Source: Candidatus Dormiibacterota bacterium (GTDB lineage: Bacteria > Chloroflexota > Dormibacteria > CF-121). From it: a stretch of 64,000 nucleotides of DNA. The notes beneath the pieces were generated by a model, which saw nothing but the letters and a program-made list of their open reading frames with translations, did not search any database and was not told where the DNA came from. The stretch lies in contig DASZZN010000005.1 of assembly GCA_035544955.1 (NCBI GenBank), positions 1-64,000 on the forward strand. The letters run 5' to 3'. Position numbers and translations under genes: made by a program. This document shows positions 2,725-35,773 of this stretch, piece after piece. Numbering within the stretch: position 1 is the stretch's first letter; each line of letters starts with the position of its first letter.

Positions 2725-4737
2725 TCAGCTCCGGACGGTGGCCGTTGCTCTCCCTCCGGCGGCGATGTTGTCCAGCCGGACCCGTCCCCAGCCCTCGCTG
2801 AGATGCGCGTCGATCCGCAAGGTTCCGTTGAACACGTCGAGGCCAAGCGCGGTGCGAAGCGCCAGAAGTGGCGCGCCGGCGGCCCATGCCTGTGGACGAG
2901 ACGCGGTTGGATACTCGACAGGCGCTCCTGTCTCCTCACGGGCAAAGCCGGCAAAGACCTCGGGCAGTCGGTATTCGAACGCCTCCGCGGCCTGGACCAG
3001 CATGAGGGCCAGGTGCGAGGCCTCTTCGCGATAGCCATAGCGGCGCAGCCCCTCGGCTACTAACGCCGTGTCGTGCGGCCAAACCGTGCCATCGTGGTAC
3101 TCGATCGGGTTGTAGCCGGCGTCGTTCGCCGACATCGTCCGAATCCCCCAGCCCGTGAACATCTCGGGCGACATCAGGCGCTTCGCCATCACGGCCGCGC
3201 GCTCTTCCGGCACGATGCCCGACCAGAGCAGGTGCCCGACGTTGGAGCTCATGGAGTCGACCTGCTTCTTTTCGCCGTCGAGCGCCAGCGCATAGTGGCC
3301 GCGAGCCTCGATCCAGTAATCGCGGTTGAAGCGCTCCCGTAGCGTCACCGCGTCACGTTCGAGGCGCTCGGCAAGTTGGGCGTCGTCCCAGACATCACGC
3401 GCGAGCCGAGCCATCCGCACGCGCGCATCGTACGCATAGCCCTGGATCTCACAAGTCGCGATCGGCCCCTTCGCCACCGAGCCGTCTTTGAAGAGGATCG
3501 AATTCCACGAGTCCTTCCAGCATTGGTTGGCGAGGCCTTCTTTCGAGCGGGTCTGATATTCGAGGTAGCCGTCACCGTCGCGATCGCCAAAGCGCTCCAT
3601 CCATTCAAGCGCTTTCATCGCGGCCGGCTGCAAGCTTCGAACAAAGTCGCGGTCGCCAGCCCAGCGCTGGTACTCGTCAAGCAGGATCAGGAAGAGCGGT
3701 GTCGCGTCGTGCGTGCCGTAGTAGGGACTGTGCGGCCGCTCGCCTAGCATTGTGAGCTCGCCAAGTCGCAGCTCGTGCAGGATCTTTCCCGGTTCGGCAT
3801 CACGAAAGTCATCCCGCTCTTTCGCCTGCCACGCGGTCAGCGCCTCGAGGGTCGTCCGTGCCAGGTGAGGCTGGAAGGGGAGTGCCTGGTAGGCGGTGAT
3901 CAGGCTGTCGCGGCCGAACAGGGCCATGAACCACGGCAGGCCCGCAGCCGGTAGCGAATAGGAGAGCGTCTTGAGCGGGCGAAAACGCAGGGCGGCCAGG
4001 TCGATCAGGCTCTGACGGTAGGTGTGGCGCAGAACATCGTTGTCGGTCTCGAGCGTTGGCGCTTGCGCCATCCATTGTTCGAAGGTGGTTGGCATGTCCG
4101 GCTTTGGGTTGCCGAACGTGCGGTCACCGTGGTCAAGCCGGTTGGGCTCTCCGTCCCTCACCGGAAAAACATCGACACAGGTTTGCCATGACCCCCGCGG
4201 CTCCAGGTGCAGCTCAAACTGTGCCCGTTGGAGTCCCACCGAAAAATTCTCGCTGAATTCGATCACGGTGTCGCGCCGATAGGTATCTCGCGTGTAAGTC
4301 AAAGTGACCCGGCTGGGGCCGAGGTCCGTGTGCAACTGCCCCCGCTTCGGGGTGCGGTCTTTGACCTCGAAGAGGTCCGCGAAATCGCTGCCGTACTCGA
4401 CCTCGATCATCACGGCCTGCGGACGATCACTGTGGTTGTGGACGGTCAAGTCTTCGTGGACCCCACGCGCCACGAAGCGGTCGCGCCGGATCGAGATGGG
4501 CGGGTTCTCGCCGACGCTGACGCTCGCCAGGGTCGCAAAGATGGACGCTGAGTAGTAGTCGACCGTTCGGCTGGTCAGGACATGGACCGGTTGGCCGTTG
4601 AGCAGCAGCCGCCAGGTGGAGAGCTGTCGCATGTCGGCATGGAAGAAGCCGTTGGCATCCTCGCTCGGTTCGACGTCGCCGGCCGCGTCGGAGACAAAGA
4701 ACGTGTTCCCATCGAGCACGGTCAGGGTGCCGGCCAT
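2725..4737 (-). CDS. Glycogen debranching enzyme-like protein (amylo-alpha-1,6-glucosidase family)
   Basis: The 670-residue cytoplasmic protein has an N-terminal beta-rich GDE_N-type domain (about 10-210; FFVSDAAGDVEPSEDANGFF opens it) followed by an (alpha/alpha)6-barrel. The barrel contains PWFMALFGRDSLITAYQ (about 250-270) and GTVWPHDTALVAEGLRRYG (about 570-590), both typical of GDE/GH63/GH15-like enzymes. Action on alpha-glucan branch points is inferred from the family. The ATG at 4737 is chosen over starts at 4764-4767 because a TACTCT hexamer ends six bases before it, giving a leaderless start, and the protein similarity begins there. Confidence 0.82.
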   Translation of the reverse strand: MAGTLTVLDGNTFFVSDAAGDVEPSEDANGFFHADMRQLSTWRLLLNGQPVHVLTSRTVDYYSASIFATLASVSVGENPPISIRRDRFVARGVHEDLTVHNHSDRPQAVMIEVEYGSDFADLFEVKDRTPKRGQLHTDLGPSRVTLTYTRDTYRRDTVIEFSENFSVGLQRAQFELHLEPRGSWQTCVDVFPVRDGEPNRLDHGDRTFGNPKPDMPTTFEQWMAQAPTLETDNDVLRHTYRQSLIDLAALRFRPLKTLSYSLPAAGLPWFMALFGRDSLITAYQALPFQPHLARTTLEALTAWQAKERDDFRDAEPGKILHELRLGELTMLGERPHSPYYGTHDATPLFLILLDEYQRWAGDRDFVRSLQPAAMKALEWMERFGDRDGDGYLEYQTRSKEGLANQCWKDSWNSILFKDGSVAKGPIATCEIQGYAYDARVRMARLARDVWDDAQLAERLERDAVTLRERFNRDYWIEARGHYALALDGEKKQVDSMSSNVGHLLWSGIVPEERAAVMAKRLMSPEMFTGWGIRTMSANDAGYNPIEYHDGTVWPHDTALVAEGLRRYGYREEASHLALMLVQAAEAFEYRLPEVFAGFAREETGAPVEYPTASRPQAWAAGAPLLALRTALGLDVFNGTLRIDAHLSEGWGRVRLDNIAAGGRATATVRS

Positions 4738-4743
4738 CGACCT

Positions 4744-4749
4744 AGAGTA
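4744..4749 (-). promoter_or_regulatory. -10 element (TACTCT) for a leaderless debranching-enzyme mRNA
   Basis: TACTCT fits TAnnnT and ends six bases before ATG 4737. Transcription would start at or within a base of the start codon. No Shine-Dalgarno sequence is present at the right distance. Confidence 0.5.
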
Positions 4750-4797
4750 CTCACCTGGCAGCATCAACGTCGTATGGGTCGAGTCAAGCCTACTCAG

Positions 4798-5463
4798 TCA
4801 GGCAGGCTCGCCAGGTGTGACCAACCGCGACTCGTAGGCGGCTACCACCGCCTGGACGCGGTTCTCGACATTAAGCTTGTCGAGGATGTGGGCGACATGC
4901 GTCTTGACCGTCGCCTCGCTGACGAAAAGCGTTTGACCGATCGCCTCGTTGTTGAGGCCGCGGGCCATCAGGCGCAGCACCTCAACCTCGCGTTCGGTCA
5001 GCGACGACAGGTCGGGCGTCAACGAACTTCGCGCGCCACGTGAGGCGTAGCGCTCGATCAACCGTCGGGTGATCGATGGAGCGAGGAGGGCGTCACCGGC
5101 AACCACCAGGCGGACAGCCGCGATCAGCTGCTCGGGCGTGACGTCCTTGAGGAGAAAACCGCAGGCCCCGGCACGCAAGGCCCCGTAGACATATTCATCG
5201 AGATCGAAGGTCGTCAGGATCACGATCCGGCAGCTGCTCAGCCCGTTCTCGAGGATCTGCCGCGTGGCTTCGAGGCCATCCATCCGCGGCATGCGAACAT
5301 CCATCAGCACCACGTCGGGTCGGTGGCGCTGGGCCAGCCCGACCGCCTGCTCACCATCCTGAGCCTCGCCGACGACCTCGAAATCGGGCTGCGACTCCAG
5401 GATCAGCCGGAAACCGGCCCGGACGAGCGACTGGTCGTCGACGATCAGGACGCGGGTGGTCAC
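4798..5463 (-). CDS. Two-component response regulator, NarL/LuxR family
   Basis: This 221-residue protein has a receiver domain (residues 1-120; acidic pocket at D9-D10, phospho-acceptor D55 in VVLMDVRMPR, conserved Lys in LLKDVTPEQL). A C-terminal LuxR-type HTH (about 150-210; LTEREVEVLRLMARGLNNEAI) follows. It overlaps the stop of the kinase gene by four bases, so it is the cognate regulator. Targets are unknown; the divergent ABC transporter genes (from 6797) are the obvious candidates, as in many DesK/BceS-like systems next to MacB-type transporters. Confidence 0.93.
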   Translation of the reverse strand: MTTRVLIVDDQSLVRAGFRLILESQPDFEVVGEAQDGEQAVGLAQRHRPDVVLMDVRMPRMDGLEATRQILENGLSSCRIVILTTFDLDEYVYGALRAGACGFLLKDVTPEQLIAAVRLVVAGDALLAPSITRRLIERYASRGARSSLTPDLSSLTEREVEVLRLMARGLNNEAIGQTLFVSEATVKTHVAHILDKLNVENRVQAVVAAYESRLVTPGEPA

Positions 5464-6796: not shown

Positions 6797-7507
6797 ATGA
6801 GCCAGCTCATCGAGCTAAACGGTGTTAGCAAGATTTACAACGGCGAACGCGGGCATGCGGCGCTCGATTCGGTTTCTCTCGACATCCACGCCGGCGAGGT
6901 AACCGCCGTGATGGGACCGTCGGGCAGCGGGAAGTCGACGCTCCTCAACGTCATCGGCGGGCTGGATCGGCCGACGAAGGGAACGGTGCTGGTCGACGGC
7001 GCCGACCTCGGCCGGCTCAGCGAGGCGGGCCTGGCGCGTTTCCGTCGGACGACGGTCGGGATCATCTTCCAGTTCTTCAACTTGCTCAACAACCTGACGG
7101 CGTTGGACAACGTCACGATCCCGGCCCAGCTCGCGGGAATCAAGCCATCCCAGACGAGGCGGCGTGCCCTGGAGCTCCTTGAACGCCTGGGAATCGCGTC
7201 GTTGCGCGACCAGTACCCTGCCCGCCTGAGCGGCGGCGAGCGTCAGCGAGTGGCGATCGCCCGCGCGCTGATCAACAATCCGGTGCTGCTGCTGGCGGAC
7301 GAACCAACCGGCGCGCTCGATTCACAGTCTGGCGACCAGGTGATGGCCATCCTTTCTGACCTGAACCGGAGCGGCCAGACCCTCGTGCTTGTTACCCACG
7401 ACGAGCGACTGGCGCGGTCGGCTGCCACCCGCGTGGTCCGCCTGATCGATGGGGCCATCCTCGACGACCGCCGCGATGCGGCTCACGGCCTGGTGCAGGT
7501 CCAATGA
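6797..7507 (+). CDS. ABC transporter ATP-binding protein, MacB/LolD type
   Basis: This 236-residue ATPase shows Walker A (GPSGSGKST, about residues 41-49), a Q-loop (IFQFFNLL), the ABC signature LSGGERQR and Walker B with catalytic Glu (LLLADEPTGALD). The sequence class is that of LolD/MacB ATPases, which drive FtsX-fold permeases rather than classical transport. A good ribosome site (AAAGGAG) lies before ATG 6797. The stop overlaps the start of the permease gene (ATGA), so the two form one complex. It is divergent from the two-component operon. Confidence 0.95.
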   Translation: MSQLIELNGVSKIYNGERGHAALDSVSLDIHAGEVTAVMGPSGSGKSTLLNVIGGLDRPTKGTVLVDGADLGRLSEAGLARFRRTTVGIIFQFFNLLNNLTALDNVTIPAQLAGIKPSQTRRRALELLERLGIASLRDQYPARLSGGERQRVAIARALINNPVLLLADEPTGALDSQSGDQVMAILSDLNRSGQTLVLVTHDERLARSAATRVVRLIDGAILDDRRDAAHGLVQVQ

Positions 7508-9840
7508 GCGCCGTCTTGCGAAAGACCCTCGCCGACATGCGCCGGCGCAAGGTCCAGACTGCCGTCATTGCGCTCGTTCTGTTGTTATCCAGCCTTTCAG
7601 CGACACTTGCGCTGACCCTGCTCGTTGAGTCGGACGCTCCCTTTGACCACGCGTTTCAGCAGGTGCAGGGCGCGCATCTGACCATGACTTTTGCCGCGTC
7701 GGCGGTCACCGAGGCCGAGTTGAGGACGACCGGGCGGGCGTCGGGTGTGAGCGCCTTCGCCGGACCATGGCGCGTTATCCCCTGGTCGATCGAGCAACCC
7801 GATGGGCAAACGTTCACCCTGCCCCTCGCCGGACGCGACGGCCCCGGCGGTGCGGTCGACCGTCTGACACTGGTCAGAGGGCGCTGGGCGCAACTCGCCA
7901 ACGAAGTGGTCCTCTCCCAGCAGTATGCGGACAAAGGTGGGACGCAGCTTGGAGACACAGTGACGGCCGGTAGCGGCGACCAGCCCGGCGCGATGACCGT
8001 CGTCGGCATCGCCGTTGGCGTCGGCAATGAACCGGGTGCCTGGACACTTCCGGCAGGGGTGCCACTGCTCACCAGCGGGAAATTCCGGACGACCTACCTG
8101 ATGGAGTACCGGTTGGTACATGCCGGCACGCAGCACGACATCAACGTCGTGGCCGATGCGATCAGCGCCTCTTTCCGGCAGGGTGCTGTGCTCGATAGCA
8201 GTAGCTACCTGACCGCCAAGCTTGACGCTGATCGGACGACCGCCGTGATGATCCCGTTTCTCCTCGCCTTCAGCGCCTTTGCACTGCTGGCATCGGCCTT
8301 CATCATCGTCAACCTCGTGAGCGGGGCCGTGATTGCCGGCACGCGCGATATCGGGATCATGAAATCCGTCGGGTTCACGCCGACCCAGGTGGTCGCGGTG
8401 CTGGCTGGCCAGATGCTCATCCCGGCGCTCGTCGGCTGCCTCGCCGGGGTGCCGCTCGGCATCCTCCTCAGCCAGCCGTTCCTGGCGGACACCGCACACG
8501 CCTTCAACCTGCCGCAGACATTCGGGTTCGCGCCCGGACACGATGCGCTTGGAGTCCTGGCGATCCTTCTGGTCGTCATCGCGACCACGGTCCTGGTCTC
8601 CTTGCGCGCCGGCCGCATGACGGCCGCGACGGCGATCGCCACCGGCAGCGCTCCAGCGGCAGGCCACGGTTACCAGCTTGCCCGGATCGCGGCGCGCCTT
8701 CCCCTGCCACGCGCCCTGACGTTTGGCGCCGGCGAGTCCCTCGCCAGGGCAGGGCGGTCGGCCATGACCGTAGGCGCCATCCTGATCGGGGTTGCGACAG
8801 TTGCGTTTAGCCTGGGGCTCAGTCGATCCCTTGCCGATGTCAAGGCTGGACTAGCGCGCGACCAGCAAGTGCAAGTCAGTGTCTTTCGCCAGGGTGGGGG
8901 AGGCGAGGGCAAAGGCCCGGTCAGCGGTCCGACCGACCAGCAGATGACAGCCCTGATCGGCGCGCAGCCGGGAACGGCGCGGTTCGTTCCTGAAACCCAG
9001 GTGGACGTCGCCGTGGCGGGCGCCGGCGAGCCGGTTCCACTGACGGCATATCGCGGCGACGCTTCATGGCTCGGCTACCCCATCATCGCGGGTCGCTGGT
9101 TCAGTTCGGCCGGCGAGGCGGTGGCGCCGACGGCGTTCTTTACCAGGACTGGACAACACGTGGGCGATACGATCACCGTAACCCTTAGTGGCCAAGACCT
9201 GCACCTGAGGCTCGTGGGTGAGATCTTCGACATCCAGGGGGACAACGTCCTCCTGCGGACGGCCTGGGGAAGCCTCTCCGGCAACCCAGAGGCGCACCAA
9301 TACGAAATCCAGCTGCGGCCCGGCACCAATGCCAACGTCTATGCCGGCGCCATGGCGTCGGGCAACCCGGGGATCGGCATCGACGTCCGCGGCCGGGGCG
9401 GCGTTGACACGGCGTTCATCCTGATCAACAGCACTCTTGCCGGACTCGCGCTGATCCTGACGCTGATCGCGCTCGCCGGCGTCTTTAACACCGTGGTCCT
9501 CAACACCCGCGAGAAGGCTCGTGACATCGCCATCCTGAAGGGGATCGGGATGACGCCGTGGCAGGTGACCGCGATGGTCCTGGCATCGGTCTCGCTGCTC
9601 GGCATCGTGGGTACCCTCGTCGGCCTGCCGGCCGGCATGGTCCTCCACCGGAACATCCTGGTTTTGATGGGCCAGATCGCATCCGGGACCAACATCCCAA
9701 GCCAGTACTTCAACGTTTTCGACCTGGGCCTGTTGATTGGCCTGGCCGCCAGCGGACTCTTGATCGCCATGATCGGCGCGCTCATTCCCGCGCAATGGGC
9801 GGCCCGCTCCCGGGTGACGGAGGTGCTCCAGACCGAGTAG
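7504..9840 (+). CDS. FtsX-like ABC permease, duplicated type
   Basis: The 778-residue membrane protein has an N-terminal TM helix (about 15-40), a large extracytoplasmic domain and a first FtsX bundle (about 245-380). A linker with a TM helix (about 415-440), a second extracytoplasmic domain and a C-terminal FtsX bundle (about 640-778) follow. Both bundles contain the diagnostic pattern seen as TRDIGIMKSVGFTPTQV and AILKGIGMTPWQV. Such permeases act as mechanotransmitters for lipoprotein or antibiotic handling; no substrate can be assigned. Its stop lies three bases from the stop of the convergent HAD gene. Confidence 0.92.
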   Translation: MSAVLRKTLADMRRRKVQTAVIALVLLLSSLSATLALTLLVESDAPFDHAFQQVQGAHLTMTFAASAVTEAELRTTGRASGVSAFAGPWRVIPWSIEQPDGQTFTLPLAGRDGPGGAVDRLTLVRGRWAQLANEVVLSQQYADKGGTQLGDTVTAGSGDQPGAMTVVGIAVGVGNEPGAWTLPAGVPLLTSGKFRTTYLMEYRLVHAGTQHDINVVADAISASFRQGAVLDSSSYLTAKLDADRTTAVMIPFLLAFSAFALLASAFIIVNLVSGAVIAGTRDIGIMKSVGFTPTQVVAVLAGQMLIPALVGCLAGVPLGILLSQPFLADTAHAFNLPQTFGFAPGHDALGVLAILLVVIATTVLVSLRAGRMTAATAIATGSAPAAGHGYQLARIAARLPLPRALTFGAGESLARAGRSAMTVGAILIGVATVAFSLGLSRSLADVKAGLARDQQVQVSVFRQGGGGEGKGPVSGPTDQQMTALIGAQPGTARFVPETQVDVAVAGAGEPVPLTAYRGDASWLGYPIIAGRWFSSAGEAVAPTAFFTRTGQHVGDTITVTLSGQDLHLRLVGEIFDIQGDNVLLRTAWGSLSGNPEAHQYEIQLRPGTNANVYAGAMASGNPGIGIDVRGRGGVDTAFILINSTLAGLALILTLIALAGVFNTVVLNTREKARDIAILKGIGMTPWQVTAMVLASVSLLGIVGTLVGLPAGMVLHRNILVLMGQIASGTNIPSQYFNVFDLGLLIGLAASGLLIAMIGALIPAQWAARSRVTEVLQTE

Positions 9841-21222: not shown

Positions 21223-22257
21223 ATGCGTGCCCCGTATCGCGTTGGACTGCTCGGCCTTGGCCACGTCGGCGGAGCGCTGGCGCGACGGTTGGTGGAGGAT
21301 GCCGATCGGATCACCCAAGCCGCCGGCCGGCCGATCCACCTGGAAGCCGTCGCCGTGGCGCACCCTGAGGGCCGGCGCGCACCGGCGCCGTTGCTCCCCG
21401 CCGCGCAATTGCTGGCACAGCCACACCTCGATGCCGTCGTCGAGGTGATGGGCGGCCTCGAACCGGCGCATACCTATATACATACGGCGCTCCAGGCGGG
21501 CCGCCAGGTGATCACGGCCAACAAGCAACTGATCGCCGCGGAGGGGCCGCAACTGGCCCGGCTCGGGACGATTCGGTTCGAGGCCTCCGTCGCCAGCGCG
21601 ATCCCGATCGTCGAAACCCTGGCCGACACGCTTGGCGCGGACCGGATCCGCTCGATCATGGGCATCCTCAATGGCACGACCAACTCGATCCTCGCCGCGA
21701 TGGACGGCGGGGCGACCTATACGGAAGCCCTCGCCGACGCCCAGCGCCGCGGTCTCGCCGAGGCGGATCCGAGCGCGGATGTCGACGCGCATGACCCGGC
21801 CGCCAAGCTAGCCATCCTCATGATGCTGGCCTTTCGGCGCCCCATCGACCCTTCCCAGATCGAGCGGGTCGGGATTCGCGGCGTCGATCCGGCGCAGGTC
21901 GAGGCGGCACGCGGGCGTGGCTTCGTCATCAAACTGGTAGCGGCCGCGACGAGCCGCGACGATGGCTCCATCGAGGCCGACGTCCGTCCACGACTGTTGC
22001 CCATGGATGCGCCGATGGCACGCGTCCATGGCGCGATGAATGCCATCAGCCTCGACGCCGACTACGCCGGGTCGCTCGTCTTTGAAGGACCGGGGGCGGG
22101 CCCGGACGCCGCCGCGAGCGCGGTGCTCGCCGATCTATTACGGGCAGCAAGGGACGTGCCCACCTCAGCGGGCTCTCTGCTCGCGAGCCTGGCGGACATG
22201 CCGCTGACGACGGTCGCGCCTCTCGGACCAAAGAACCCGTATCCTGCAGCCTCGTGA
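21223..22257 (+). CDS. hom: Homoserine dehydrogenase
   Basis: This 344-residue enzyme reduces aspartate-4-semialdehyde to homoserine. The NAD(P) motif is VGLLGLGHVGGALARRL. The catalytic domain shows VITANKQLIAAEGPQL, FEASVASAIPIVETL, MGILNGTTNSILAAM and GLAEADPSADVDAHDPAAKL. The C-terminal ACT regulatory domain found in about 430-residue homologues is absent, so threonine feedback through that domain is unlikely. It is separated from lysC, asd and thrB and followed at 13 bases by trpE. Confidence 0.93.
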   Translation: MRAPYRVGLLGLGHVGGALARRLVEDADRITQAAGRPIHLEAVAVAHPEGRRAPAPLLPAAQLLAQPHLDAVVEVMGGLEPAHTYIHTALQAGRQVITANKQLIAAEGPQLARLGTIRFEASVASAIPIVETLADTLGADRIRSIMGILNGTTNSILAAMDGGATYTEALADAQRRGLAEADPSADVDAHDPAAKLAILMMLAFRRPIDPSQIERVGIRGVDPAQVEAARGRGFVIKLVAAATSRDDGSIEADVRPRLLPMDAPMARVHGAMNAISLDADYAGSLVFEGPGAGPDAAASAVLADLLRAARDVPTSAGSLLASLADMPLTTVAPLGPKNPYPAAS

Positions 22258-29274: not shown

Positions 29275-30515
29275 GCGACGCTGGCGGGCGCTTTTTCCGC
29301 AGCGGCCAGCGCCGTCTCGAACTCCGACGCGCGGGGCTTCGCCAGGTGCAGCCGATGCCCATCGCGGACATCGAAGAGCTCAGTCGTCTTCAGGCCGTTG
29401 CCGGTGACGCAGATCACGACGGTTTCCTTCCGCTGGATGCGGCCGGTGCCGATGAGCTCCTTGAGCCCGGCGACCACGACGCCACCGGCGGGCTCGCTCA
29501 GGACGCCCTCGGTCTCGGCCAGCAGTGCCATCGCTTCCTGGACCGCGTCCTCGCGGCAGGCGGTGCCCCACCCTCCCGATGCGCGCACCGCCCGTGTAGC
29601 GTAGCGGCCGTCGGCGGGGTTGCCGATCGCCAGTGACTTCGCGATGCTATTCGGCCGCACCGGCGTGACCTGGTCGCGGCCATCCTGGATCGCGGTGCTG
29701 ACCGGGGCGCAGCCTTCCGCCTGCGCGGCGTGGATCCGCGTGGCGACCCGGTCGACGAGGCCGACGCCGACGAGTTCCTGGAACGCTTTGGCGGTCTTGG
29801 CGAGCAGGGACCCCGCGGCGACGGGGACGACGATGTGATCGGGCGCCCTCCAGCCGAGCTGTTCCACCACCTCGAACGCTAGCGTCTTGCTCCCTTCGGA
29901 GTAGAAGGGCCGGAGGTTGACGTTGACGATCGCCCAGCCGTACAGATCGGCGAGCTCGACGCACAGCCGGTTGACGTCGTCGTAGGTGCCGTTGACCTCC
30001 ACGACCATGGCGCCGTAGGCGCTCGCGGCGCCGACTTTGCCCGGCTCCAGATCGGCGGGGATGAAGACGAGCGCGCGCATTCCCGCGCGCGCCGCGTAGG
30101 CGGCGACCGAGCCGGCGAGGTTACCGGTGGAGGAGCAGGAGAGCGTGTCGAAGCCGTAGGAGAGCGCGAAGTTGGTGGCGACCGCCACGTTGCGATCCTT
30201 GAACGAGCCCGTCGGGTTCACCGTGTCGTTCTTCAGATAGAGATGGTCGAGGCCGAGGACCTTCCCGAGGTTGGGGGCTTTCACCAGCGGCGTGAAGCCA
30301 GTCCCCAGGTCGATGGGCTCGCCGTTCGGGGCGGGCAGCAGCTCGCGATAGCGCCAGATGGTGTTCGGTCCCTTCGCGATCGAGTCGCGGCTGACCCGCT
30401 CCCTGACGGCGTCGAGGTCGTAGGCGACCTCGAGCGGTCCGAAACAGTGCTCGCAGACGTAGGCGGGCTCGAACTCCCGCAATCGTCCGCACTCCCGACA
30501 GCGCAACTGCTTCAC
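29271..30515 (-). CDS. thrC: Threonine synthase, long form with N-terminal Zn ribbon
   Basis: This 414-residue PLP enzyme has an N-terminal zinc ribbon (LRCRECGRLREFEPAYVC then EHCFG), the PLP Lys in NPTGSFKDRNVAVATNFA, and CSSTGNLAGSVAAYAARAGM. VTGNGLKTTELF lies near the end. GTG 30515 is the start: GAGGAGG lies six bases upstream, while longer in-frame sequence runs back through the riboswitch. It is the first gene of the thrC-asd-lysC-thrB operon and the second threonine synthase in the window. Confidence 0.93.
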   Translation of the reverse strand: MKQLRCRECGRLREFEPAYVCEHCFGPLEVAYDLDAVRERVSRDSIAKGPNTIWRYRELLPAPNGEPIDLGTGFTPLVKAPNLGKVLGLDHLYLKNDTVNPTGSFKDRNVAVATNFALSYGFDTLSCSSTGNLAGSVAAYAARAGMRALVFIPADLEPGKVGAASAYGAMVVEVNGTYDDVNRLCVELADLYGWAIVNVNLRPFYSEGSKTLAFEVVEQLGWRAPDHIVVPVAAGSLLAKTAKAFQELVGVGLVDRVATRIHAAQAEGCAPVSTAIQDGRDQVTPVRPNSIAKSLAIGNPADGRYATRAVRASGGWGTACREDAVQEAMALLAETEGVLSEPAGGVVVAGLKELIGTGRIQRKETVVICVTGNGLKTTELFDVRDGHRLHLAKPRASEFETALAAAEKAPASVA

Positions 30516-30544: not shown

Positions 30545-30573
30545 CAAATAAAAAGCCCCTGGGGGGAGGGGCC
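30545..30573 (-). terminator. Intrinsic terminator of the SAM riboswitch
   Basis: On the minus strand GCCCCT-CCCCCC-AGGGGC is followed by TTTTTATTTGTTT. It stands between the aptamer and thrC, as expected for a transcriptional OFF switch. Confidence 0.8.
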
Positions 30574-30591
30574 GTCTCGTCCGTGACTGCA

Positions 30592-30692
30592 TCATCTTTC
30601 AGACTCTCGTCTGACGGACTTTCCACCTTGCCGGTCACCCGGTAGGTTGGCAGGCATCTCTGGGCCGGTCCCTCCGCCACTCTTGATAACCG
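30592..30692 (-). promoter_or_regulatory. SAM-I (S-box) riboswitch aptamer
   Basis: Read on the minus strand, the conserved S-box blocks follow in order: TTATCAAGAG, GGAGGGACCGGCCC, GATGCCTGCCAACC, CAAGGTGGAAAGTCC and GAAAGATGA. The 5' GTTATC and 3' GATGAT strands can form P1 with two wobble pairs. SAM binding would favour the terminator at 30545-30573 and switch off thrC-asd-lysC-thrB. S-boxes usually control methionine genes; here the operon supplies the common trunk and the competing threonine branch. Confidence 0.9.
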
Positions 30693-30713
30693 TCGGTATT
30701 CAGTTGTCCGAAA

Positions 30714-30743
30714 AGCCTAACAGTCCCTGCCTCCGCCTTGCAA
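30714..30743 (-). promoter_or_regulatory. Candidate promoter TTGCAA-N18-TAGGCT for the thr operon
   Basis: The -35 is at 30738-30743 and the -10 at 30714-30719. A start site near 30707 would lie about 15 bases before the aptamer. Confidence 0.45.
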
Positions 30744-30748
30744 CTTGA

Positions 30749-31735
30749 CTACGTAATTCGGGGCATCCCCCCATAAACCGGGGTACACCATTGCCGGTAG
30801 CGCGGGTCCTGGCCCCGCACCGCGCGGAAATAGGCCTCCTGGAGTCCCATTGTGATGGTGCCGGGCCGGCCGGTGCCAACCCGGCGCCCATCCACCTCGA
30901 CGATCGGCGCCACCTGGACGCCGGTGCCGCAGAGGAAGGCCTCATCGGCCTGGTAAACCTCGGTGCGGTCGATGCTTCGCTCGACGACGTCGAGCTCGAA
31001 GTCGAGGGCCAGCCGCATGACGGCGGCGCGGGTGATGCCAACCAGGATGTCATCCGTGACGGGGGGTGTGACCAGGGTTCGGCCCTGGACCATGAAGAAG
31101 TTGGCCGCGGCCCCCTCGGCGATGTGACCGTCCTCCGTGAGCATCAGGCAATCGTCGTAACCGGCGGCGTTGGCATCTTCCGTGGCCAGCGCGGTGTTGA
31201 CATAGGCGCCGGTGATCTTCGCCCGGGCCGGGATGCTGTTGTCGCTGACCCGCCGCCAGGAGGAGATCGTGACTCGCAGCCCGTCGATGCGCGCGTAGGC
31301 CCCCATCGGCATGGCGAAAATCGCAACCGCATCCTCGGACGAGTGCAGATCGACCTTGATCATGGCGGAGGCCTTGTAGGCGATCGGCCGGACGTAGACG
31401 TCGGTCCGGTAGCCGTCACGGCGGACGATCTCGCGGGTCAGCTCGCACAGCTGGTCGACGTTCTCCTCGACCTTGATCTTGAGCAGCGCCGCCGACTTGA
31501 GAAACCGCTGGTAGTGCTCGGCCAATTTCAGGAGGTAGATCTCATGCTGCTCGGCGTTCCAGTACCCGCGGATCCCCTCGAAGCACGCCGTGCCATAGTT
31601 CAACGCGTGGGTGCCGATGCTGACGTTCGCCTCTCCGAAGGGCACGATCGCGCCCTTGAAGTAGGCAAAGCCACCATAGACCGCCTTCGTTGGCGGGGGT
31701 GGCGCCGTTTCCGGGTGCAGGGGCTCGATTGCCAT
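30749..31735 (-). CDS. ilvE: Branched-chain amino-acid aminotransferase
   Basis: This 328-residue class-IV PLP enzyme carries out the last step of Ile, Val and Leu synthesis. The PLP Lys lies in ARAKITGAYVNTALATEDA. HIAEGAAANFFMV and CGTGVQVAPIVEVDGRRVG form the cofactor and substrate loops, and LNYGTACFEGIRGYWN is the N-terminal signature. It overlaps the leuA stop by one base and ends the ilv/leu operon. Confidence 0.93.
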   Translation of the reverse strand: MAIEPLHPETAPPPPTKAVYGGFAYFKGAIVPFGEANVSIGTHALNYGTACFEGIRGYWNAEQHEIYLLKLAEHYQRFLKSAALLKIKVEENVDQLCELTREIVRRDGYRTDVYVRPIAYKASAMIKVDLHSSEDAVAIFAMPMGAYARIDGLRVTISSWRRVSDNSIPARAKITGAYVNTALATEDANAAGYDDCLMLTEDGHIAEGAAANFFMVQGRTLVTPPVTDDILVGITRAAVMRLALDFELDVVERSIDRTEVYQADEAFLCGTGVQVAPIVEVDGRRVGTGRPGTITMGLQEAYFRAVRGQDPRYRQWCTPVYGGMPRIT

Positions 31736-32967
31736 CAGGCGATAGCCCCCACCCTGCCCTCCCCCTGAGGGGGAGGGGCCGTTGTTGCGAGCGATTGCGT
31801 GAGGCGCACGATATCCTCCAGGTCCCGATCGAGGATGTCTTTCTTGCGGTCGGCGAGCTCCAGGAAGAGCTCCCAGGCCCGGCCGAAGTCCGCCTCCGAG
31901 AGGTGGTACCCGAGCTCGCGGAGCCGGAACTGAAACGCGTGGCGCCCCGACCTGGGGGAGAGCACGATCCGGCTCTCTCCCATCCCTACCTCTTCGGGCC
32001 GCATGATCTCGTAATTCAGCTTGTCTTTGAGAATGCCGTCTTGGTGAATCCCGGAAGCGTGTGCAAAGGCATTTGCGCCGATCACCGCCTTGTTCGGCTG
32101 CACCGGGATGCCGGTGTGCTTCGAGACCAGCGCGCTGACCTCCGCCAGGCGAGTGGTGTCGATACCGGTTCGCAGCCCGAGCGACTTCTCGCGGGTCCGC
32201 AGGATCATCACGACTTCCTCAAGCGAGGCGTTGCCGGCCCGCTCGCCGATGCCATTGATCGTGCATTCGACCCGGCGGGCGCCATTCAGGACCGCGGCGA
32301 CGCTGTTCGCGGTCGACAGGCCGAGGTCGTTGTGACAATGCACGCTGATCAAGGCGCGGTCGATGTTGCGGACGTTGTCGCGGATCGACGCGATCAGCGC
32401 CCCGAACTCGTTGGGGAGCGTGTAGCCCGTCGTGTCGGGGATGTTGACGACCGTGGCGCCGGCGTCGATCACGGCCTCGAGCGTTTCGAAGAGGTACGCG
32501 AGATCGGCGCGGCCGGCATCCTCGGGCGAGTACTCGACGTCATCGCAGAGCGAGCGGGCATAGGTAACGGCTTCGACGCCGCGGCGGAGCACATCGCGCC
32601 GGTTGGAGCGCAGCTTCCGCTCGATATGGATGTCGGACACCGAGAGCACCATGTGGATCTGCTTTCGCTCGGCATCCTGGACAGCCTGCCATACAGCATC
32701 GATGTCGGGACGAGCCGCCCGCGCCAGCGCGGTGATCATCGGGCCCCGAACCTGCCGGGCGATTCGCTGCACCGCCTCGAAATCGCCGGGAGAGGAGAGG
32801 GGGAAGCCGGCCTCGATTACATCAACGCCGAGGCGAGCGAGCTGCCAGGCGATCGCCAGTTTCTGATCCGGGGTCAGCGAGGCGCCGGGCGATTGCTCGC
32901 CGTCGCGCAGGGTGGTATCGAAGATGAACACGCGGTCGCCGGTCGGTGTCGGTACTCGGGCCTCCAT
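31735..32967 (-). CDS. leuA: 2-isopropylmalate synthase, short form lacking the regulatory domain
   Basis: The 410-residue protein has the full DRE-TIM catalytic barrel: [20 protein letters not shown], the metal-binding [20 protein letters not shown] and [21 protein letters not shown] linker follows ([40 protein letters not shown]), and then it stops. The C-terminal leucine-binding domain of about 120 residues present in typical LeuA is missing. The last residues ([13 protein letters not shown]) are coded by a 9-bp inverted repeat, so the domain may have been lost when that repeat arrived. Feedback by leucine is therefore uncertain. Confidence 0.9.
31757..31777. repeat. Perfect 9-bp inverted repeat at the end of leuA
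   Basis: CCCTCCCCC-TGA-GGGGGAGGG lies inside the leuA 3' end. Such G/C-rich palindromes with this Gly-Glu-Gly-Arg-Val translation are common dispersed repeats in many high-GC genomes. Only one copy is seen here. Confidence 0.6.
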
Positions 32968-33977
32968 CAGTTGCTGGCCTTCTTGTCGGCTTTCAGCCAG
33001 GGCATCATGGCGCGCAGCTCCGCCCCGACCTTCTCGATCAGCTCGCCTTTGGCGCGCTGCCGGGAGGCGTTGAAGGCGGGCCGGCCGGCCTGGTTTTCCA
33101 GGATCCAGGTGCGGGCGAAGGTGCCGTCCTGGATCTCACGGAGGATCTGGCGCATCTCCTCGCGGACGGCGGGACTGATGATCCGTGGGCCGCTGACGTA
33201 GTCGCCGAACTCGGCGGTGTCGCTGATGCTGTACCGCATGTAGCTCATGCCGCCCTGGTACATCAGGTCGACGATCAGCTTCATCTCGTGGAGGCACTCG
33301 AAGTAGGCGAGCTCCGGCTGGTAGCCGGCTTCCACCAGGGTGTCGAAGCCGGTCTTGACCAGCGAGGTCAGTCCACCACAGAGCACGGCCTGCTCGCCGA
33401 AAAGGTCCGTCTCGGTCTCCTCTTTGAACGTCGTCTCCAGCACGCCCGCCATCGTCGAGCCGATCCCGCGGGCGTAGGCGAGCGTGCGGGCGCGCGCCTT
33501 GCCGGTCGTGTCCTGGTGGACGGCGAACAGCGCGGGGACGCCGACCCGCTCTTTGAAGAGCCGGCGCACGATATGGCCCGGCCCTTTGGGCGCGACCATC
33601 GCGACGTCGATATCCGCCGGCGGGAGGATCTGGCTGAAGTGGATGTTGAAGCCGTGCGCGAACATCAGCGCGCTGCCCGGCTTGAGGTTCGGCTTGACCA
33701 CCTCGTCGTAGAGCCGCTTCTGCGTCTGGTCCGGCACGAGCATCATCACCAGGTTGCCGAGTTCGACGGCCTTCTCGACCGTCTCGACGCGTAGGTCTTC
33801 CTTTTCTGCCGCCTCCCAGGACTTACTGCCCTTGTAGAGGCCGACCACGACATCGACGCCGCTGTCCTGCAGGTTCAGGGCGTGCGCGTGGCCCTGACTG
33901 CCGTAGCCGATGACCGCGACTCGCTGGCCCGCCAGCGCCGCCATGTCGGCGTCGTCGTCGTAGTAGACCTTGGCCAT
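32967..33977 (-). CDS. ilvC: Ketol-acid reductoisomerase (class I)
   Basis: This 336-residue NADPH enzyme isomerises and reduces acetolactate or acetohydroxybutyrate. [20 protein letters not shown] is the cofactor fold; [20 protein letters not shown] and [20 protein letters not shown], with acidic Mg ligands, form the active site. It shares one base with the leuA start and with the stop of the TPP enzyme, so the operon is tightly coupled. Confidence 0.95.
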
Positions 33978-35773
33978 TAGAGGTACGTCTTGGTCGTCAG
34001 GTTGTTCAGCCGGGGGTTGAGGCCGATCACCTGGTCGGCGTCGACCGGCACGTCGATCAGGATCGACTGGCCCGAGGTCTCATAGCAGGCGTCCATGATC
34101 TCCTTGAGATTGCTCAAGTCCGGCTTCACCCGGTAGCCGTCCCAGCCATGCGCCTTCGCCGCACCGACGAAGTCGATCGTCGGCAGCGTCGAATGGTAGC
34201 GCCGCTTCTCGACGTCGGGGATGACGACTTCGAGGCCCTTGTCGACGATCCCGTAGACGCCGTTGTTGATGATGAAGAGCCGCAGGTCGAGGTTGGCGGC
34301 GTCGGCCAGCGCGCCGCCGAAGAGGCGCCAGCAGCCGTCGCCGGAGAAGACGAAGGTATGGAGGCCGGGATCGGCCATCTTTGCGCCGACGCCCAGCCCG
34401 AAACCGCCGCCCATCGCCGACCCGTCATGGGTGCTGTGGAACGGAATCCAGGGATGGGGTCGCTGTGTGACGTACTGCCGATCCTTGTAGGCGATGCAGA
34501 CGTCGTCGAACCCGATGCTGTTCGGCCGCCACGATTGGTGCAGCTGCTCGTAAAAGCGGATGAAGTCGACGCTACCCTCGCGCACGTCGCGAGAGATCTG
34601 GCGGGTATTGAGGCGTTCGGGCACATCCATCGGTGGCCGCCGGCCGACGCCGCGCTTCGACAGCTGCGGAATGACCTCTCGTAGAACCGCGTCCAGGTCC
34701 CCATGCACCACGTCGTAGTTGCCGCGAACGCGATGGCGGAACTCGCCGGCGATGTGGCCGTACTGCTCCGTCCACCCCGTGAAGTTCCAAACCTGTCCGG
34801 CGGGAATCGTCGCCAGGTTGAGCGAATATTCGCCCGGATCGAAGCCGAGCGTAATGACGCAGTCGTCGGGACCGACGCTTCGCCAGAGCTTCATCGCCTC
34901 GTCGTTGCCGCCGAAGGAGATGTAGCCGAAGCCGTAGCGGTTGTCGGGCGAAACGGCATTCGCCCCGTTGACCGACCAGACGGTCGGCGCCTGCAGCAGC
35001 TCCGCCAGCTGGGTGGTCAGGGCCGGCATGCCCGGCCAGCGCGCGGCCTCGCTGCCGACATAGATCACGACCCGGCGCCCGTCGGCGATCTGCGGAAAGT
35101 CCTGCACGAAGCGCTCGACGTCCTGCGGACGAAAGCCGCGGGGGCGGAGACGTGACGGCACGTCGACCTCGATGTCCTTGGAGAGGATGTCCGGATAAAA
35201 GGCGATGGCGATCGGCTTGGATTCCATCAGGATCGCCTGGGCCCGCTCGAGCTGCTCCTCCATGGTGTCGATGTCGTCGATCACGATGCAGCCATCACCC
35301 AGCTCGGCCTGGAGTTGCGGCACGATGTTCATGCCGTGGACCGACACGTCCTGAAGTGGCGCCTGGCCGATCGACAGCGTGGAGTTAAGGGCAACCAGGT
35401 AGACCGCCGGGATGTTGTGCAGCTTAGCGTCGGTCAGGCCGCTCCCTCCCAGCTTGGTGGCGGCGCCGGTCGTGGTGATACAGCCGGCGACGCGGCCGGA
35501 GGCGAGGTAGTACCCGAGCGGAACGAAGCCGGCGACGTACTCGCCCATCGTCAGCATGCGGGGCGCGCCGTCTGTCGCTTCCGACGGGTCGGACAAGGGC
35601 TCGAGGTGCTTGGTCACGTGGATCAAGCCACCACCGTTGACGCCGGCGTAGGAGGTGATGCCCCAGCGGCGGAGCGTCTCGATCAGCCAGAAGTTGCCGC
35701 TGGTGCGCTCCAGCGGCGCCGGCCCAAACGGTGTCAGCTCCTGCTCGACGCGGTCGATCATTTCAGTACTCAT
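33977..35773 (-). CDS. TPP-dependent acetolactate-synthase-like enzyme
   Basis: 598 residues with the three-domain plan of the acetolactate synthase/pyruvate oxidase family. The catalytic Glu is probably E78 in [11 protein letters not shown]; the central domain contains [18 protein letters not shown]. The TPP motif is [20 protein letters not shown] (GDG at about 478-480) followed by IINNGVYG. Sequence around the N-terminal site ([12 protein letters not shown] in place of the usual PGG motif) is divergent. No small IlvN-type subunit gene is present. Position before ilvC, leuA and ilvE makes acetolactate synthesis the best guess; another decarboxylase or ligase activity is possible. Confidence 0.78.

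Follow-up and report, generated by a model that had tools for sequence, protein, structure and literature searches.

A SAM-I riboswitch upstream of a metM-like gene and the only asd, lysC and thrB copies found in a Dormibacteria genome

Introduction

Which pathway does a SAM riboswitch govern when the gene directly behind it is annotated as a threonine synthase? This question is raised by a locus on the minus strand of a 64,000-nt stretch of DNA, referred to below as the window, in which a SAM-I leader is followed by a gene that annotates as thrC and then by asd, lysC and thrB. The answer depends on the identity of the lead gene, on the other routes to methionine that can be found in the genome and on the location of the remaining genes of the aspartate family.

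Results

The leader contains a SAM-I aptamer and a terminator

A single region of the 64,000-nt window matches Rfam at threshold. This is a SAM-I aptamer (RF00162) on the minus strand at 30692-30589, which reaches 60.6 bits (gathering score 44.4; E = 1.5e-11), extends over the full model (positions 1-108) and is conserved in 13 genomes of the family, here called f1. It is also the only RF00162 match in the genome, which comprises 3.67 Mb and is 95% complete. The aptamer is followed on the same strand by an intrinsic terminator stem-loop of seven base pairs (30573-30554) and then by a T run, TTTTATTTGT; the shuffle mean for such terminator-like stems is 0.3. The first-pass annotation of the window had placed a SAM-I riboswitch and a terminator in front of this operon and had suggested a covariance-model scan. 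The scan gives a full-length match above the cutoff, and both elements are confirmed.

The core blocks of the aptamer are invariant across f1, and the terminator arm is present in all 13 of the family leaders examined. The J3/4 segment departs from the RF00162 consensus. By the numbering of the Thermoanaerobacter tengcongensis structure, this change apparently keeps the loop pseudoknot by means of a C-G pair. Riboswitch calls throughout this work rest on Rfam models and, judged by its sequence, the leader (30692-30554) is a genuine SAM-I riboswitch with its terminator. No sigma-70 promoter was found at threshold upstream of the operon. A conserved pair of elements, TTGCAA/TTGACG and TAGGCT/TAGTCT with 18 nt between them, is present there as a candidate promoter and is to be taken only as a lead.

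The riboswitch is conserved at the same position in the family

Conservation was surveyed in 61 genomes of the class, namely this genome and 60 relatives. RF00162 matches were present in 16 of them, 15 over the cutoff. Within f1, 13 of the 18 genomes carry a match, and in all 13 the riboswitch sits between ilvE and the thrC-like gene, with asd and lysC coming next as far as the fetched stretch reaches. As for the five f1 genomes that are without a match, two (G001 and G012) have only a partial thrC-like gene and the other three (G005, G014 and G016) have no thrC-like gene above 400 bits.

In two genomes of another family (f4) SAM-I occurs in other surroundings. At these loci (L038 585-673 and L039 5977-6065) it does not adjoin metM, and in L039 the nearest recognised gene on the same strand (3794-4891), about 1 kb off, encodes a BNR-repeat protein. 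One f2 genome (G050) gives a weak SAM-I match that is over the cutoff as SAM-I-IV (57.8 bits; L040 3311-3425). In one genome a partial tandem duplication (L016 1501-2300 / L025; G008:C297) carries two SAM-I aptamers that are separated by 560 bp, and in the interval an ilvE end and a metM start are repeated; it may be either real or an assembly artefact.

Predicted switching between two folds

In each of the 13 leaders, the upstream segment that pairs best with the 5′ arm of the terminator is the G-rich strand of the aptamer's P2 helix, which in the window is GGAGGGACCGG (30665-30675, minus strand) and is the predicted antiterminator. This pairing contains one mismatch in the window and exhibits no covariation. 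The J3/4 segment GUCCG (30615-30619, minus strand) is predicted to pair alternatively with CGGAC (30579-30583, minus strand) in the SAM-free fold. The latter helix (alignment columns 148-152/190-194) nests with the P2/terminator-arm helix and displays one compensatory change, from G-C to A-U, in the most distant leader (L010). Constrained folds of our own design, computed for nine leaders, predict that in eight of them the antiterminated state lies 0.3-8.3 kcal/mol below the unliganded terminated state; for the window leader the predicted values are -50.9 and -48.5 kcal/mol, respectively. The exception is L012, in which the unliganded terminated state is predicted to be the more stable. The unconstrained minimum-energy fold includes the terminator in L011, L012 and L022, as does that of the window leader when eight extra 5′ bases are added, and the stability of the whole-leader fold is not unusual (z = -0.80). 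These models suggest that a high level of SAM would stabilise the aptamer and thereby free the terminator, and that without SAM the 5′ arm of the terminator would be taken up by the P2 strand, and CGGAC by GUCCG, permitting read-through.

Genes of the operon and its neighbours

The lead gene (30515-29271, minus strand) encodes 414 amino acids from a GTG start. Its longest frame opens within the aptamer (30680). The start at 30515 is backed by a ribosome site, GAGGAGGAATTCG, and both start and site are common to the relatives. It is followed on the same strand by asd (29274-28186), which encodes aspartate-semialdehyde dehydrogenase and overlaps the stop of the lead gene by 4 nt, by lysC (28237-26927), which encodes an aspartate kinase with ACT domains and of which the true start probably lies downstream of 28237, and by thrB (26927-26028), which encodes the homoserine kinase that makes O-phosphohomoserine. 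NCBIfam and Pfam agree on these genes, and the order thrC(-like)-asd-lysC-thrB given in the first-pass annotation is thus confirmed. The four frames touch or overlap in the style of a tight operon and are probably co-transcribed.

On the same strand upstream of the riboswitch lie ilvC, leuA and ilvE. This cluster is headed by an acetolactate synthase-like protein (33977-35773, minus strand), for which the best score, 82.5 bits, is far under every curated cutoff listed. LeuA (31735-32967, minus strand) is short, with 410 amino acids that align to no more than positions 1-383 of the 516 in the model, and its C-terminal part, the leucine-sensing domain, seems to be absent.

The lead gene belongs to a MetM-like clade

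Two threonine synthase models of NCBIfam match the lead gene above their cutoffs. There was no MetM model among its NCBIfam matches, and a threonine synthase label is therefore what a MetM would receive in any case. A tree of 68 rows, made by a quick method and including one long-branched MetM-like row, places 51 MetM-like rows, the lead gene among them, on one side of a branch with an SH-aLRT value of 100. In the same tree 12 ThrC rows, four of which have solved structures, group at 99, and five zinc-ribbon "threonine synthases" of archaeal, alphaproteobacterial and Chloroflexota plasmid origin stand apart. Three Streptomyces metM-metO rows (L107, L112 and L124), which stand in for S. albulus MetM in these comparisons, group with the lead gene and apart from ThrC.

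A similar picture emerges from 14 alignment columns that tell 35 MetM-like rows and 11 ThrC rows apart. At 13 of these the lead gene possesses the MetM residue, the one mismatch being Ile for Phe at 196. They include Leu133 in place of Thr, Asn200 in place of Ser and Tyr205 in place of Arg; the ThrC residues at these three columns presumably bind the substrate phosphate. By the usual marks of a threonine synthase the lead gene falls short, having neither the ThrC residues nor a place among the ThrC proteins of solved structure. Its product is likely to be an O-phosphohomoserine-dependent homocysteine synthase of the MetM type. A first tree had suggested that f1 acquired metM horizontally. This is not supported, since a tree in which family and class stay in one group scores higher by 13.9 log units (p-AU 0.745).

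Methionine synthesis in this genome and its class

No match to MetA was found in this 95% complete genome, and the MetX model gave at most 24 bits there and at most 31.6 bits across the 61 class genomes. As a positive control, the same MetX search was applied to 71 other genomes of the phylum and scored 265-478 bits in 29 of them, so that a real MetX would have been seen. A MetM-like gene scoring above 400 bits is present in 50 of the 61 class genomes; one more has a 371-bit fragment and ten have none so strong. The missing MetX and MetA matches, together with the MetM-like clade and the 13 of 14 residues, speak against the earlier statement that the operon makes threonine and not methionine.

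MetM takes its sulfur from a carrier protein, and the genome has three genes of the ThiS family. One of them, on another contig, encodes a MetO-like protein of 91 amino acids that ends in AVAGG and is 65% identical to a metM-linked MetO of the same class. Of the other two, we read one as a fusion of ThiS with ThiG-like sequence and the second as a MoaD-MoaE-like fusion. No MetO-type gene adjoins metM in the f1 loci or follows thrB in the window, and the MetM-like enzyme would accordingly have to pair with an unlinked carrier. In the other families of the class MetO directly adjoins metM at 12 of 18 fetched loci (L137-L154) and does not at 6; none of these 18 reached any Rfam cutoff. The genome also contains a cystathionine beta-synthase gene followed by a gene for which cystathionine gamma-synthase is the top-scoring model and gamma-lyase a close second, a pair that is consistent with the making of cysteine from homocysteine. 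A second gene of the gamma-synthase/lyase type and a CysM-like gene are located elsewhere. The CysM-like protein might use the MetO-like carrier instead of MetM, and this, like the absence of MetO from the operon, counts against the assignment of the lead gene as MetM.

MetM-like loci in other phyla

The best outside match to the lead gene, among plasmid-collection records, is from Nonomuraea gerenzanensis (about 50% identity), where a SAM-I aptamer, the metM-like gene and a 91-residue ThiS-family protein ending in AVAGG follow one another, which is the arrangement reported for metM-metO of Streptomyces (PMC12172450). We then considered MetM-like loci from one genome per species, taking the best 80 of 597 confirmed (49-60% identical). 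In these best 80 of 597 the clade spans Chloroflexota, Actinomycetota, Nitrospirota, Omnitrophota, Planctomycetota, Verrucomicrobiota, Acidobacteriota, Armatimonadota and other phyla. Of the 80 loci, 72 have a MetO-like gene downstream in the same orientation, at a distance of 250 bp or less in 58, of 251-700 bp in 10 and beyond that in 4; one of the eight clade loci without it runs off its contig. Because adjacency to MetO holds in 72 of the 80, it was not taken as defining MetM. SAM-I is present within 700 bp upstream of the metM-like gene in 26 of the 50 loci examined from the best 80 of 597, over the cutoff in 24 and below it in two. In an additional Rfam scan, for which 14 loci had been picked in part by motif, SAM-I was upstream in 11; another, of 12 loci, placed SAM-I in L061, L074, L082 and L093 and gave a T-box match in L050.

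Comparable couplings are seen elsewhere. An Armatimonadota locus links SAM-I, thrB and metM, and a Neomarinimicrobiota locus (L066 7238-10842) carries the run metM-metO-thiF-lysC-asd, in which the ThiF protein may serve to activate the MetO carrier. In the Chloroflexi locus L050 the T-box leader (7116-7542) lies shortly downstream of metM-metO, with hom, thrC and thrB upstream. In another Chloroflexi locus (L072 6050-10344) genes for three MetO-like carriers cluster with two genes of the CBS/CysM type, which suggests that the carriers may be specialised.

A separate, probable threonine synthase and the possible reach of SAM control

The first-pass annotation had noted another threonine synthase gene outside the riboswitch operon, and this observation holds. 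The gene, thrC (18199-17159, minus strand; 346 amino acids), has the ThrC residue at 14 of 14 diagnostic columns and groups with ThrC (99 SH-aLRT), and it likely encodes the true threonine synthase. The only hom found in the genome, for homoserine dehydrogenase (21223-22257, plus strand), is not under the riboswitch either. A joint query of the genome for LysC, Asd and ThrB returned the operon copies only, the next matches scoring 22.6 and 17.2 bits. Since asd, lysC and thrB were found only in the operon, SAM could limit threonine, lysine and diaminopimelate, an outcome that could be avoided if termination were leaky or an internal promoter present. The earlier proposal that SAM throttles the trunk and the threonine branch together therefore survives for asd, lysC and thrB, the only copies found, and does not extend to the lead gene, which by the evidence above is probably not a threonine synthase. 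That one SAM-I riboswitch acts as a master valve of the aspartate family, with the supply of methionine, threonine, lysine and diaminopimelate set by SAM, is a possibility that we advance tentatively and regard as somewhat doubtful. What remains unusual is that the sole copies found of asd, lysC and thrB lie behind SAM-I, and hom and thrC lie outside its reach. This raises the question of how lysine and threonine synthesis continue when the only trunk genes found answer to SAM.

Discussion

As a whole, these results make it probable that the locus is a SAM-I riboswitch followed by metM, asd, lysC and thrB, and that SAM-dependent termination controls methionine synthesis together with the supply of its substrate. 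Asd and LysC, with Hom encoded elsewhere, would lead to homoserine, which ThrB would phosphorylate to O-phosphohomoserine. MetM would then exchange the phosphate for the sulfur of a thiocarboxylated MetO-like carrier, also encoded elsewhere, and the resulting homocysteine would be converted to methionine and hence to SAM. With a MetM in the lead position, feedback by SAM on this operon would be ordinary methionine control with substrate supply included.

Two other explanations concern the enzyme itself. The lead gene could encode a second true threonine synthase, in which case SAM would shut off threonine synthesis along with the trunk. This would agree with its scores over the NCBIfam cutoffs of two threonine synthase models and with a Microcystis protein from the clade, which shares 51.6% identity with MetM, is encoded beside a metO-like gene and has threonine synthase activity in vitro; according to its authors, it falls short of full MetM function in the cell (PMC12172450). 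No other evidence weighs as heavily as this homolog against reading function directly from clade membership. Nevertheless, a threonine-making operon under SAM was set aside as the leading explanation and appears very unlikely: the lead gene's clade and residues oppose it, the same window encodes another protein that has the ThrC residue at all 14 diagnostic columns, sulfur-carrier genes and SAM riboswitches accompany much of the clade (in the best 80 of 597), no MetX was found in the class and the NCBIfam label would be expected for a MetM anyway. It is also unlikely that the enzyme is bifunctional and forms both homocysteine and threonine from O-phosphohomoserine, with both products trimmed by SAM. 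The Microcystis data (PMC12172450) and the shared substrate and fold favor such an enzyme, whereas the consistent replacement of the ThrC-diagnostic residues and the presence of a dedicated ThrC do not.

A further alternative places the fault in the RNA, in that the aptamer may be degenerate or may sense something else, leaving the operon in practice constitutive. Its score is indeed moderate, 60.6 bits as compared with 80-98 bits for SAM-I in the best other metM leaders, and J3/4 is off consensus. However, with core blocks invariant across the family, a terminator that has been kept and a J3/4 change that appears to preserve the pseudoknot, we find this extremely hard to credit. The preferred explanation, in which a SAM-I riboswitch controls a metM-led operon, has a wider consequence. 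In many phyla, genes labelled threonine synthase that lie behind SAM riboswitches are probably homocysteine synthases, and relabelling them would change predictions of methionine auxotrophy for uncultured bacteria.

Comparison with known systems

Like the SAM-I (S-box) class represented by RF00162, the leader described here has a full-length aptamer match and then a terminator. In the textbook S-box the 3′ strand of P1 prevents the terminator, whereas here it is the P2 strand of the aptamer that is predicted to do so. For the enzyme, the closest comparison is with Streptomyces albulus, in which, as Hasebe and colleagues reportedly described in 2024, MetM turns O-phosphohomoserine and thiocarboxylated MetO into homocysteine. 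The two systems share a threonine synthase-like enzyme that uses, here probably, O-phosphohomoserine, a SAM riboswitch upstream, which has been reported for S. albulus metM (PMC12172450), and the absence of any homoserine acyltransferase found. They differ in that here metO is unlinked and the operon runs on into the sole asd, lysC and thrB found. SAM riboswitches are also present on hom in Bacillota (PMC12452182), and there, as here, SAM control would reach the aspartate-family trunk; in the Bacillota hom is the controlled gene, whereas here hom is outside and asd, lysC and thrB are inside the operon. No description of an operon in which SAM-I precedes metM-asd-lysC-thrB was present among the literature matches listed. 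The parts of this system are known, and their combination is new.
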